The notes beneath the pieces were generated by a model that saw only the letters and a program-made list of their open reading frames with translations, was not told the DNA's origin and did no database searches. Both the position numbers and the translations under genes were made by a program. From the NCBI RefSeq assembly GCF_023213175.1, contig NZ_CP093312.1, forward strand, positions 682,001-746,000: a stretch of 64,000 nucleotides of DNA, given 5' to 3'. Below, one piece after another: positions 2,497-6,027 of the stretch (the stretch's first letter is position 1; each line of letters opens with the position of its first letter). Source of the DNA: Sulfurovum sp. XGS-02 (lineage in GTDB: Bacteria > Campylobacterota > Campylobacteria > Campylobacterales > Sulfurovaceae).

Positions 2497-2570
2497 AAAA
2501 CCTTATAAAGTTATATATTTTATAAGGTTTTGAGAACAAGACATTTTTGATATACTCTTAATACTAAATA
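2497..2570 (+). repeat. Palindromic island repeat, copy 1
   Basis: The left part is an AT-rich palindrome with arms AAAACCTTATAAA and TTTTATAAGGTTTT. It is followed by a conserved tail (GAGAACAAGACATTTTTGATATAC) ending in CTCTTAATACT. Copies 2 (3280) and 3 (4208) repeat it in the same orientation. The tail contains TATACT, a plausible -10 box, so the copy may also serve as promoter for the gene starting 21 bases further on. Confidence 0.8.
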
Positions 2571-2590: not shown

Positions 2591-3277
2591 ATGAAACTTG
2601 TTTTACTTCCTGGCCTTGATGGAACGGGAGACTTATTTAAACCACTTACTGACGTATTACCTAGTTCAATAAGAGTGCAAGTCATTGACTATGATTTAAA
2701 AAACAAACAGTCATACAATGATCTTGTTAAATATGTGATATCTAGTCTTCCTAAAGAAGATTTTATCTTATTGGCTGAATCATTTTCAGGGCCAATTGCA
2801 TATCAAATTGCACTTAGAAAACCGAAGCAATTAAAGTCTTTAATTTTAGTTGCAACTTTTTTAGAAAATCCAAGACCTCTTTTATTAAAATTTATCCCAA
2901 ATAGTAGAATATTCTCTTTGCCAATACCTACTCTAATAATTAAATTATTTTTTTTAGGATTCTCAGCAAAAACCGAGATTATTGATTTATTTAAAACAAC
3001 CATTAAAAAAGTGTCTCCAAACGTAATTGTTTATAGGCTAAAAGAAATTGCACAACTGAAAACACTTGATAAAAGTTTTGAGCTCAGAACAACTTATATA
3101 CAAGCTTCCAATGATAAACTTGTTCCAAATAAATCTTTAAGAAGTTGGCAAAAAATTTGTAAAAACATTAATATTTTTCAAGTTAATGGAAACCATTTTA
3201 TATTACAAGCAAGCCCTAGTAGATGTGCAGAAATTATAACCGAAGAAGTGCGTCTTATATCAAGTAGACAAGAATAA
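2591..3277 (+). CDS. Alpha/beta hydrolase in the repeat island
   Basis: A 228-residue alpha/beta hydrolase without signal peptide. LLPGLDGTGDLF at residues 5-16 is the oxyanion loop, AESFSG at 62-67 is the nucleophile elbow with Ser64, NDKLVP near residue 183 supplies the acid, and GNHFIL near 207 the histidine, so the triad looks complete. The substrate cannot be read from sequence. Codon use is markedly AT-rich compared with genes outside the island. The ATG follows an AAAGGT-like site (AAAAGGTAAATTCAAAAG). Copy 1 of the island repeat ends just before it and copy 2 begins three bases after its stop, so gene plus repeat behaves as one unit. Confidence 0.75.
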   Translation: MKLVLLPGLDGTGDLFKPLTDVLPSSIRVQVIDYDLKNKQSYNDLVKYVISSLPKEDFILLAESFSGPIAYQIALRKPKQLKSLILVATFLENPRPLLLKFIPNSRIFSLPIPTLIIKLFFLGFSAKTEIIDLFKTTIKKVSPNVIVYRLKEIAQLKTLDKSFELRTTYIQASNDKLVPNKSLRSWQKICKNINIFQVNGNHFILQASPSRCAEIITEEVRLISSRQE

Positions 3278-3279
3278 TA

Positions 3280-3337
3280 AAAACCTCATAAAGTTATATA
3301 TTTTATAAGGTTTTGAAAACAAGACATTTTCGATATA
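3280..3337 (+). repeat. Palindromic island repeat, copy 2
   Basis: Nearly identical to copy 1 over the palindrome (AAAACCTCATAAA with TTTTATAAGGTTTT) and the tail as far as CGATATA. After that it diverges and lacks the CTCTTAATACT end. The following gene is on the opposite strand, so any promoter activity of this copy would read antisense to it. Confidence 0.8.
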
Positions 3338-3350
3338 AATCGTACACAAT

Positions 3351-4124
3351 TTAATAGTGGCAATTTATATTTCCATTGTCTACTGCTTTGACAAATCGTA
3401 TATCATGAGAAACTTGATATAATTTACCATCTATTCCTTTTCCAACTATAATAATTTTTCCATCTTTTTTCATACTAATACTAATATAATCAGGGATAGT
3501 CTTATTAAAAAAATTCATGGTAGCAATAGTTGCATAAGTATTATTATTCGTAAAAATTGCCAGTGATTCAAGCTGAACATCCGATTTAATTTTCAAAGTA
3601 ACTCCATTACTACTTTCTTCCATTGGATCTGGAATACAAAGCAAGATTTTCCCCAATATTGGTTTATCCAAACCATATAAGAATGTTTTAGCAGTTTCGA
3701 TATCTTTTATTGTCCATACCTTTTGATCTATATTTTCATTTTTGATTAAATTTTGCGAACTGCTATGTAGAACTTTCACATTTTCATTATTAAGATTTTT
3801 AATTCTTTGATAAGTATGTCCGAGACTATCTATATAAGATAACTTTACATTTTTAGAATTTAGCTTTTTATTTACAGAAAGACTGACTCCTAGTATTTCT
3901 ACACTAAATGGATTTGACGAAGCATCATATACTTTAGATCCATCTAGTCCAAGTGCAAAATATTCCACCTTAACAAAGTCTTTTGCTTTCTGCGGGTATT
4001 TAAACTTTACGTTTGTAACTATATCTGGAGTAAAATCGTGAATAACAAACCCGACTTTATACTTATTGTCTTGTCCAAATAACTGTAAAGACATAATTAA
4101 TAAAATTAAAATAATTTTTCTCAT
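3351..4124 (-). CDS. Exported SoxZ-SoxY-like fusion protein
   Basis: 257 residues with a signal peptide (hydrophobic core LILLIMSLQLFG, probable cleavage before QDN). Residues 36-112 resemble SoxZ: VKFKYPQKAKDFVKV, then VEILGVSLSVN, where SoxZ has a SxNPY segment, and YIDSLGHTYQ, where SoxZ has WxDxxG. Residues 142-257 resemble SoxY: NGVTLKIKSDVQLESLAIF, IDGKLYQ and a C-terminal GNINCHY. In SoxY a terminal GGCGG arm carries sulfur intermediates on its cysteine; here Cys255 is third from the end but the flexible glycines are lost. The order Z then Y in one chain is unusual. No other sox gene is nearby. Family assignment is by motif reading only. Strongly AT-rich, within the repeat island. Confidence 0.55.
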   Translation of the reverse strand: MRKIILILLIMSLQLFGQDNKYKVGFVIHDFTPDIVTNVKFKYPQKAKDFVKVEYFALGLDGSKVYDASSNPFSVEILGVSLSVNKKLNSKNVKLSYIDSLGHTYQRIKNLNNENVKVLHSSSQNLIKNENIDQKVWTIKDIETAKTFLYGLDKPILGKILLCIPDPMEESSNGVTLKIKSDVQLESLAIFTNNNTYATIATMNFFNKTIPDYISISMKKDGKIIIVGKGIDGKLYQVSHDIRFVKAVDNGNINCHY

Positions 4125-4166
4125 TTAATGCTTCCACCTCTTGAATAAAAGATTATAACAAAAGTC

Positions 4167-4186
4167 AAAACCTTATAATCTAAAAT
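4167..4186 (+). repeat. Partial island repeat (left arm)
   Basis: AAAACCTTATAATCTAAAAT matches the left arm of the island palindrome and the start of the degenerate copy at 5874. It stands upstream of the minus-strand SoxZY-like gene, 22 bases before full copy 3. Confidence 0.5.
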
Positions 4187-4207
4187 AGAATATGGAAAGG
4201 ATGAAGA

Positions 4208-4277
4208 CGTCATAAAGTTATATATTTTATAAGGTTTTGAGGATAAGACATTTTAGATATACTCTTAATACTGAAAT
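4208..4277 (+). repeat. Palindromic island repeat, copy 3
   Basis: Same orientation and order as copy 1: CATAAAGTTATATATTTTAT, AAGGTTTTGAGGATAAGACA, then GATATACTCTTAATACTGAAAT. The first six bases of the left arm are degraded. The tail again gives TATACT, which could be a -10 box for the gene at 4355. Confidence 0.8.
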
Positions 4278-4354
4278 AACTCAATAAGAGGATACTTTGT
4301 TCCTTTAATAAATAGTTGTGAGTCACTTACAGATAAATTGAAAAAAGGTAATCA

Positions 4355-5755
4355 ATGAATCGTTACATGTATATATTACTTTTAATATCTGTAAACACCT
4401 TTGCTTTAGAATCATTAGATCAGCTATTGCAAAAAGGTATGATACGTACAGCAACAGTCCAAGATTTTGATAGGTGGGAAAGGCAAAAGCAAAAAGAACT
4501 AAAGGTTTTTATGCAAGAGCTTCCTTCTATTATCAAATGGAAAAAACAAGCAGATACACTAAAGGCTATAAATATAGAACCACCTTCTCTTAAGGATGTA
4601 AAAGAATATATTTCATCTAGATTACCTATAGAGAGTAGCGGATATATAATTCTAAAAAAAATTACAATTCCAACAAGTTTTTATCAAAAAGATTCAGCAA
4701 CGTTCTTTTTAGAAAAAGGTGTTCCTTATCCTGATGGTAAACTTGGGCATTCAAAACTTTACGATTTCAATACAATGTCATGTCAGGGCTTTGGATGTAG
4801 AAATACTAAAAGTGACAAAATCAAAAAACTTTATTCGCAATGTGAATTCAATGAATTTGAATTACCAGACGACATTCAGATCTATGCAAGTGATGCTCCC
4901 AAGGGTAAAGTTACAGGTCACACTATTGATGATAGTAACCAAGGCGCATTTCTAGTGAAAGTTGTGGTCAACTCACCGAATAAACCCGTTGCACTGATTC
5001 TTTCATCATATAGCCCGTGTATTTGGGATATCAAGTGGACAGAAGGGACTAAAATTGAAGCTGTTTTTACAACTGGATATTATGGGCAAGAAGTAAGCGG
5101 TTTAGCGAAAGACATACCTATAGGAAGTAGTACGCTTTCCAACGGTGAGCATCCATGTTATTTACTCGGTGTTTCTCATAAAATAAGAGACCTGGTAAGA
5201 ATAAATACATTTTCTAATAAAGTATACGGGAAAAATACTACTGTACTTTATACGGACAATTATAAAAATGACACTTTAATCATTGGAAATGAAATCTCAA
5301 AATCGACCAAGCTATATTCTTCAAATGACAATTCTATTGAATCGTTTTTTACTACAACAGAACCAAATGCTGGAAATGCTGGAATGGAATATTTGCTCAA
5401 GAACAATATGATTCGAAGAGCAACAGAACATGACTTGAATTCGTGGGCACAAGAAAGATATAAACTGTACTTAAAGCAGTTAAAAACATCTAGTATCAAA
5501 GCTACAGCAATGAATATAAATATGAATTCACTCAAACCTATTTGTAGTTATGATAATGGCTATGTTATCTTAAAAAAGATCAGAATACCTGCTGAATTAT
5601 ATGGAGGCAATTTGGCTGTCTTCTTCTTGAAGAAAGGTGTTCCTTATCCAGATGGTGACCTTGCACATTCCACTCTTTTTGATTTCAATTCACTACAATG
5701 TAAAGGTAGTAGTTGCGGTGTATGCAGTGATCAAAGTCAAGTATCAAACAATTAA
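4355..5755 (+). CDS. Exported protein with a duplicated cysteine-containing module
   Basis: 466 residues with a signal peptide (YILLLISVNTFA, cleavage probably before LES). Two copies of one module frame a central domain. Copy one, residues 21-148, starts LDQLLQKGMIRTAT and ends YDFNTMSCQGFGC. Copy two, residues 344-454, starts MEYLLKNNMIRRAT and ends FDFNSLQCKGSSC. Both contain GY(I/V)ILKKI, FFL(E/K)KGVPYPDG and a late C-x4-C pair. The second ends GVCSDQ, adding a cysteine. The middle part (about 150-340) is beta-rich with further cysteines. No known family is recognised; the paired cysteines suggest disulfides or metal or haem binding in the periplasm. Island repeat copy 3 precedes it and an attC-like structure follows its stop by 28 bases. 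Confidence 0.65.
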   Translation: MNRYMYILLLISVNTFALESLDQLLQKGMIRTATVQDFDRWERQKQKELKVFMQELPSIIKWKKQADTLKAINIEPPSLKDVKEYISSRLPIESSGYIILKKITIPTSFYQKDSATFFLEKGVPYPDGKLGHSKLYDFNTMSCQGFGCRNTKSDKIKKLYSQCEFNEFELPDDIQIYASDAPKGKVTGHTIDDSNQGAFLVKVVVNSPNKPVALILSSYSPCIWDIKWTEGTKIEAVFTTGYYGQEVSGLAKDIPIGSSTLSNGEHPCYLLGVSHKIRDLVRINTFSNKVYGKNTTVLYTDNYKNDTLIIGNEISKSTKLYSSNDNSIESFFTTTEPNAGNAGMEYLLKNNMIRRATEHDLNSWAQERYKLYLKQLKTSSIKATAMNINMNSLKPICSYDNGYVILKKIRIPAELYGGNLAVFFLKKGVPYPDGDLAHSTLFDFNSLQCKGSSCGVCSDQSQVSNN

Positions 5756-5783
5756 TGACTAATAGTAATTTTAAGTATGACAC

Positions 5784-5851
5784 CATAACAAATGCGAGGA
5801 GACGCAATAATTTACCCTACGGCGAAACTATTGCTCACGACAAACGTTATG
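5784..5851 (+). other. attC-like recombination site (imperfect palindrome)
   Basis: A 68-base imperfect palindrome with the box layout of an integron attC site. R'' is CATAAC (5784-5789) and R' is GTTATG (5846-5851), exact complements. L'' is GCAATAATTT (5804-5813) and L' is AAACTATTGC (5825-5834), complementary with one mismatch. The central loop is ACCCTACGGCG, and the segments between R and L boxes do not pair. It lies directly 3' of a + strand gene, where a cassette's attC belongs. R' departs from the GTTRRRY consensus and no integrase gene is in the window, so this is tentative. Confidence 0.4.
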
Positions 5852-5873
5852 AACTTTTTATACCCTAAAAACC

Positions 5874-5907
5874 AAAACCTTATAATCTAACATATTTTAT
5901 AAGGTTA
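5874..5907 (+). repeat. Degenerate island repeat, copy 4 (palindrome only)
   Basis: AAAACCTTATAA and TTTTATAAGGTT arms flank TCTAACATA. The conserved tail is absent and is replaced by a small hairpin TCGCTGTAGCGA at 5909-5920. Confidence 0.6.
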
Positions 5908-5954
5908 TTCGCTGTAGCGACGTTTGTGAACCATAAATATGTATCTCTCTATAG

Positions 5955-5990
5955 AAAACCTTATAAAATGTGCCATATAGGAGGTTTTAT
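5955..5990 (+). repeat. Highly degenerate island repeat, copy 5
   Basis: AAAACCTTATAAAATG on the left and AGGAGGTTTTAT on the right keep the outer arms of the palindrome. The right arm now doubles as a strong ribosome binding site (TAGGAGG) for the mini-ORF at 5992. Confidence 0.4.
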
Positions 5991-5991
5991 A

Positions 5992-6027
5992 ATGAAAACT
6001 GTTAAAATAAAAGCATTAACTTTATAG
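5992..6027 (+). pseudogene. 11-codon ORF with strong ribosome site, probable gene-start remnant
   Basis: TAGGAGG stands eight bases before ATG. The frame encodes only MKTVKIKALTL before a TAG. Such a good initiation signal in front of so short a frame suggests the leftover 5' end of a lost cassette gene, or a leader peptide; there is no attenuator-like structure after it. The 5756-6066 gap otherwise holds only the attC-like site and repeat copies 4 and 5. Confidence 0.3.

Follow-up and report, generated by a model that had tools for sequence, protein, structure and literature searches.

The window, by which we mean the whole 64-kb stretch of DNA analysed here (from a single-contig Sulfurovum genome of 2.19 Mb, G000), contains a gene that joins a diverged SoxZ-like domain to a SoxY domain, in that order. 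We consider it probable (roughly 0.6) that its product is a Sec-exported, single-chain thiol carrier of the SoxZY type, with a re-tailored arm, that spread as a gene cassette; the homology and the mobility of the fusion are well supported, and the carrier chemistry is what we infer. Orthologs were found in L093 (genome G105; 218 of 257 residues identical, 85%) and L094 (G116; 209 of 257, 81%), and the gene is under purifying selection (dN/dS of 0.36 and 0.37 against these two, respectively). The features of the gene are:

3351-4124, minus strand: SoxZ-SoxY fusion gene, 257 aa, C-terminal end GNINCHY
4071-4124, minus strand: putative Sec-type signal peptide, residues 1-18 (by eye)
3732-4070, minus strand: diverged SoxZ-like half, residues 19-131 (hhalign, and shuffle test with the fusion profile)
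3375-3731, minus strand: SoxY-like half, residues 132-250 (Pfam, NCBIfam, hhalign, Foldseek, fold Z score)
3354-3374, minus strand: GNINCHY tail, residues 251-257, with the Cys255 codon at 3360-3362 (identical in 3 of 3 orthologs)

A SoxY domain preceded by a diverged SoxZ-like domain

The C-terminal half is SoxY by profile, by profile-profile comparison and by predicted fold. The Pfam SoxY family (PF13501) matched residues 170-243 with E=2.8e-4, below its gathering score (21.5 bits, threshold 28.4), and TIGR04488 matched residues 131-243 with E=2.3e-5, far below its cut-off (24.9 bits, cut-off 125). The hhalign comparisons, made with a profile of the window fusion and its two orthologs, gave E=4.7e-17 against Sulfurovum SoxY and E=1.2e-20 against the SoxY half of the other fusions; the controls gave 0.59 (SoxZ), 0.016 (fused SoxZ domains) and 0.2 to 0.54 (reversed). 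The AlphaFold model of the fusion is of low confidence (mean pLDDT 43.9), and the SoxY fold was still recovered from it: the 15 Foldseek matches at E<=0.001 were all SoxY or SoxYZ entries, and the SoxY structure 2oxh_D was matched with a Z score of 11.1 over 103 residues (model positions 140-246; best unrelated entry, 8.7). The SoxZ chain 1v8h_A was also aligned onto the SoxY half (Z 8.5), which we read as the common Ig-like fold. The fold search with a single-sequence model (mean pLDDT 42.0) listed no SoxY or SoxZ, its best Z score being 4.0, to unrelated proteins.

The N-terminal half holds as a SoxZ-like domain by sequence comparison, as a much-diverged relative that is weakly SoxZ by itself. 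Alone it had no Pfam or NCBIfam SoxZ match (PF08770, TIGR04490), and against a model of stand-alone SoxZ it came ninth in a ranking with 2000 of its shuffles, and first once fused SoxZ domains had joined the model. With hhalign it gave E=0.0024 against stand-alone SoxZ (score 22.9, with 18.1 as the highest among 60 column shuffles) and E=0.0037 against the fused SoxZ domains (score 21.4; best of 60 column shuffles higher, 22.2), the controls being 0.63 (SoxY) and 0.57 (reversed). We regard this half as SoxZ-like because of its homology via intermediate fusions: the paralogs L037, L039 and L041 are recognised by profile as SoxZ then SoxY; a 13-fusion profile matches the solved SoxZ 2ox5_Z (positions 33-118, E=2e-4) and then the SoxY 2nnc (151-265, E=2.8e-8); and a profile of 11 other fusions, the window lineage excluded, aligns with residues 17-250 end to end, as one domain. 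When the C-terminal half was kept and the N-terminal half shuffled, 2 of 2000 shuffles reached the real score against this 11-fusion profile (4 and 6 of 2000 for the orthologs).

The reversed-order fusion proposed in the initial annotation therefore stands, with two of the suggested checks, profile search and structure prediction, supporting the SoxY half; no Pfam or NCBIfam SoxZ profile matched the N-terminal half alone, and this half is predicted with a pLDDT under 50, the structure searches bearing mainly on the C-terminal half.

C-terminal tail and export

The window tail keeps a cysteine near the terminus and has lost the glycines, as had been noticed from the sequence: Cys255 is the third residue from the end, as in GGCGG, no C-terminal GGCGG arm is present, and the arm is longer in sequence than that of SoxY. 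GNINCHY and the two cysteines of the protein (Cys163, Cys255) are unchanged in the three orthologs. The tails of the fusions differ from lineage to lineage: NINCHY (window lineage), ADGCGGGG, DSCL, LPCSMDEKI, SHGCGRDGE and LSCHGNQLINDM in the short proteins, and DNCS or GEAT in large ones described below. Of the 7 short fusion lineages, 6 have a cysteine among their last 12 residues, versus 22 of 149 background ORFs (from loci that include the fusion genes themselves); therefore, the terminal thiol is kept and its surroundings are not. The 317-aa lineage has no cysteine in the last 12 residues and the GEAT-tailed large fusions (L040-L042, L099) have lost theirs, so carrying would not be universal in the family.

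The signal peptide of the initial annotation agrees with what is seen by eye in residues 1-18, a basic and hydrophobic stretch with neither a lipobox cysteine nor a twin arginine, identical in both orthologs and predicted to be helical (residues 2-15 or 4-13 in two models with mean pLDDT 42 and 44). Such a plain hydrophobic start is common to the fusions, and a twin-arginine motif was found in 24 of 32 stand-alone SoxY rows, a count in which some loci appear twice. Canonical SoxYZ is exported folded by the Tat route, SoxZ being carried along by SoxY; a fusion that uses Sec, as is putatively the case here, would make such co-transport unnecessary.

Z-then-Y fusions in the genus Sulfurovum

A search with the fusion profile found Z-then-Y fusions, among the matches listed, in at least 11 of 78 genus genomes, the copy of G103 being cut by a contig end. 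Short exported fusions numbered 11 among those listed (255-317 aa: one each in G000, G027 and G101, two each in G003 and G105, four in G116), and proteins of about 1000 aa with LVIVD, ankyrin, SoxZ and SoxY domains were found in G002, G003, G009, G056, G101 and G112, with a fragment in G103 (L039:5790-8807, L095:6878-9928, L040-L042, L099). Across 398 genomes of the order, both halves were matched only in G000, G009 and G112, all of them Sulfurovum, at a cut-off (E<=1e-36) that would miss weaker fusions; the remaining matches, among them one with four internal stop codons, were essentially confined to the SoxY half. In a SoxY-domain tree, which did not contain the 317-aa lineage, 12 of 13 fusion rows fell on one starred branch (96/86) and L097 stood apart on a long branch; the Z-Y fusions may have a single origin.

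A different SoxY fusion was also observed: an exported SoxY with a GGCGG-like arm, internal in these proteins, fused ahead of a von Willebrand A protein (L043:7537-9435, L044:5869-7824, L045:7445-9424; the YfbK-type assignment comes from L044).

Proposed carrier function and alternatives

SoxYZ is the central carrier in the oxidation of thiosulfate and sulfur, and the substrate range is believed to depend on its arm. Intermediates are held on the arm cysteine, sulfane conjugates being the likely active carriers (PMC5336275, in the part of the article available), and divergent SoxYZ arms have been linked to other substrates in the available text of PMC11237559. In the window fusion, the diverged SoxZ-like domain placed ahead of the SoxY domain would leave the C-terminal SoxY arm free, and the halves, packed much like the heterodimer, would not need to find each other after export. 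A sulfane, polysulfide or sulfonate group would be bound to Cys255 and presented to periplasmic Sox enzymes from the host's own sox loci; an arm altered in sequence and length probably suits another donor or acceptor, and the tail variants would tune the partners. If this is true, the natural variation of the arm among these mobile single-chain carriers would allow the role of the arm sequence to be tested by tail swaps.

The isolation of the gene from other sox genes, claimed in the initial annotation, was confirmed. There is no second SoxY or SoxZ gene in the 64-kb window, the cassette of the fusion carries no sox enzyme gene, and the other sox loci of the genome (soxXYZAB and soxC-Y2-Z2) are more than 250 kb away, their SoxY and SoxZ genes being at 55-60 kb and 428-430 kb and the fusion at 685 kb. 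The protein may work in another pathway, as that annotation suggested, but SoxX, A, B and C are encoded close to the host's own SoxY and SoxZ genes (SoxB partial in the stretch read), so the fusion might just as well act in the Sox pathway of the host. A third stand-alone SoxY paralog of this genome, with the tail HLSCMGSGE, lies upstream of soxC (L003:1345-1812, about 55.8 kb on contig C1 of G000).

The alternative that survives best, which we rate as having a real though minority chance, is an extra SoxY2Z2-like paralog acting as an alternative carrier in the host's own Sox pathway, in a polysulfide or S0 branch with SoxCD. The stand-alone matches reported in the first search were SoxY proteins, many ending GGCEG, and a GGCEG-type SoxY adjoins SoxC and Z2 in the window genome (L002, L003); SoxY2 of Sulfurovum indicum has been proposed to hold polysulfide for SoxCD (PMC10045233, in the part available). 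Against such a paralog speak the altered arm and the separate branch formed by the fusions (12 of 13 rows, 96/86). It is unlikely, in our view, that a former SoxZY carrier has been re-used outside sulfur transfer in a structural, binding or regulatory role, with Cys255 incidental or in a disulfide with Cys163. The loss of the arm glycines, the long branches, the lost cysteine of the GEAT fusions, the joining of SoxZY to LVIVD and ankyrin repeats and the retention of two cysteines in all three orthologs would all suit such re-use, but a cysteine near the end of 6 of 7 short lineages (22 of 149 in the background) despite unlike tails, and the constancy of GNINCHY in the three orthologs, argue against it. 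That the resemblance arose by chance or that the gene is a pseudogene in decay, for which a Pfam score under the gathering threshold could be cited, has a negligible probability and is ruled out by the profile-profile match (E=1e-17 to 1e-20), the dN/dS values (0.36 and 0.37) and the SoxY fold (Z 11.1).

Comparison with known SoxY and SoxZ proteins

The window fusion resembles the SoxY and SoxZ of thiosulfate oxidation (TIGR04488, TIGR04490) in having both domains, a cysteine near the SoxY C terminus and export, and differs from them in being one chain, with Z before Y, no GGCGG, a longer arm, no twin-arginine signal and a diverged SoxZ. Fused SoxYZ proteins are already in print (PMC11237559 and PMC8190135, in the parts available). 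The quinoprotein dehydrogenase-associated fuse_rel_SoxYZ (TIGR04557) and the SoxYZ-S2 and SoxYZ-S4 of PMC11237559 are fusions of the same domains with divergent arms, which the available text of that article connects with soxH and with genes for alcohol, methanol or formate dehydrogenase. In TIGR04557 the order is Y then Z (SoxY on profile positions 9-123, SoxZ on 128-224) and the SoxY arm is internal; by sequence, the Z-Y order of the Sulfurovum fusions is thus the opposite of that known from this family. Membership of TIGR04557 was rejected on this opposite order; the window fusion gave no match to that profile, and the genes next to it encode an alpha/beta hydrolase and an orphan protein of 466 aa, and no quinoprotein dehydrogenase. 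The phage-encoded fused soxYZ of PMC8190135 shares with it a fused SoxYZ on mobile DNA, and differs, as far as the available text goes, in being a phage auxiliary metabolic gene; relatives of the window fusion were not found in the viral contig collection or the phage collection, and PHROGs gave only a weak tail-fibre match. The "SoxZY" of PMC6397845 is the ordinary complex in the part available. Also close are the Sulfurovum LVIVD-ankyrin-SoxZ-SoxY proteins, which share the Z-Y order and the SoxY branch and differ by a large N-terminal extension and by DNCS or GEAT tails.

The fusion gene lies in a repeat-bounded cassette

The mobile-looking island described in the initial annotation is borne out by composition (27-34% GC, against 37-48% in the flanks) and by boundary repeats. 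A repeat of about 72 nt, in three same-strand copies, bounds units at 2497, 3280 and 4204:

2497-2531, plus strand: cassette boundary repeat, copy 1 (repeat comparison)
2591-3277, plus strand: alpha/beta hydrolase, 228 aa, neighbouring cassette (PF00561, E=7.9e-10)
3280-3314, plus strand: cassette boundary repeat, copy 2, on the 3' side of the fusion gene (repeat comparison)
4169-4238, plus strand: cassette boundary repeat, copy 3, on the 5' side of the fusion gene (left half 4169-4187, core 4204-4238)
4355-5755, plus strand: 466-aa protein, neighbouring cassette (internal duplication, N-terminal hydrophobic stretch, no family)
5873-5998, plus strand: array-end module of about 125 nt (repeat 5876-5908, hairpin, second palindrome, ribosome-binding site and ATG)

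The palindromic core of the repeat (31-35 nt, AAAACCTYATAAAGTTATATATTTTATAAGGTTTT) occurs, with up to 3 mismatches, in 18 copies in the window genome and in 32 of the 78 genus genomes, the reversed control giving 0 in all. An exact search in named genomes found 16 stretches, including Sulfurovum sp. AR and the MAGs GLR145 and E29_bin29, two of the 16 being unclassified proteobacterial or epsilonproteobacterial MAGs. In G000, the segments that separate neighbouring cores by less than 3.2 kb total about 9.5 kb, about 0.4% of the genome.

Of the 11 short fusion genes listed, 10 have a core on either side (one unit of L094 contains two of these genes), and the exception (L096) is at a contig end; none of the ~1000-aa LVIVD-ankyrin fusions was found in such a position. 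The DNA of the window resembles that of L093 from 3280 to 5904, repeat to repeat, and that of L094 from 3314 to 4277. At the same chromosomal place the array is missing in G116, where the flanks are about 115 bp apart (L140), and a different insert is present in G003 and G105 (about 2.8 and 1.9 kb). The gene would thus belong to a group of such fusions that have moved from one Sulfurovum genome to another in cassettes bounded by repeats, which suggests that variants of a putative sulfur carrier are swapped within the genus by gene exchange; if so, cassette exchange extends to a core component of lithotrophy. Searches of the plasmid collection, of genome contigs by protein and with PADLOC were uninformative for the fusion and its island.

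The search for partners with the same gene order that had been suggested found no conserved partner among the neighbourhoods in the 78 genus genomes. The fusion and the 466-aa gene adjoin in G000 and G105, the only 2 of 78 genomes with the latter, and another fusion gene stands beside the ortholog in G116 (L094); the 466-aa protein was accordingly rejected as a demonstrated partner. The duplicated block of this orphan is FFLxKGVPYPDG.

An array-end module and a candidate recombinase

The array-end module was found in 30 of the 78 genomes, 26 of which are among the 32 with the core (overlap counted by hand). This module also serves as the leader of a gene for a 196-aa, catalytic-domain-only tyrosine recombinase (PF00589, E=1.1e-14), of which G027 has one copy and G116 two:

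L100:5507-6097, minus strand: 196-aa recombinase gene, array-end module as leader
L097:11498-12088, minus strand: 196-aa recombinase gene, array-end module as leader
L148: 196-aa recombinase gene, array-end module as leader

The protein keeps by eye the R, K, HxxR, H and Y residues that we take to be the catalytic set. Of 24 array ends that were inspected, L184, L186, L190, L192 and L195 seem by eye to have a decayed recombinase start after the ATG, and tblastn supports such a start in L193 over the first 16 residues. The recombinase is a candidate mobiliser of the cassettes; an intact copy is absent from G000, G003 and G105 in the search of the 78 genomes and a distant relative is present in G055, which has no repeat core, and we therefore treat the assignment as a lead and reject the enzyme as a proven mobiliser.

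The arrays resemble integron cassettes in being low-GC gene arrays with palindromic sites and a recombinase leader at one end, and differ in carrying genes on both strands, in the 196-aa recombinase and in that the repeat-rich genomes mostly lack IntI. The boundary repeat is by eye without the RYYYAAC...GTTRRRY boxes that we assume to mark attC. The integron integrase profile (TIGR02249) scored over its cut-off in 20 of the 78 genomes, and in G101 alone of the seven repeat-richest; its best score in the window genome was 60.8 bits (cut-off, 265). A classical integron was rejected as the explanation of the island, IntI being under the cut-off in G000, G003, G105, G027, G116 and G029. Among the papers listed by a literature search on Sulfurovum with cassettes or recombinases, none described such a system. 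A wider proposal, which we advance tentatively and regard as doubtful, is that Sulfurovum has an integron-like system (the palindromic site, the ~125-nt end module and the 196-aa recombinase) in which SoxZ-SoxY fusions with ever-different cysteine tails would be interchangeable carrier cargo, changing which sulfur compound or enzyme is served.

Other cassettes contain immunity-like genes, with a Tdi1 C-terminal domain or a SUKH domain (L097:10341-10775, L100:10774-11163), as if immunity genes of polymorphic toxins were also cassette cargo.
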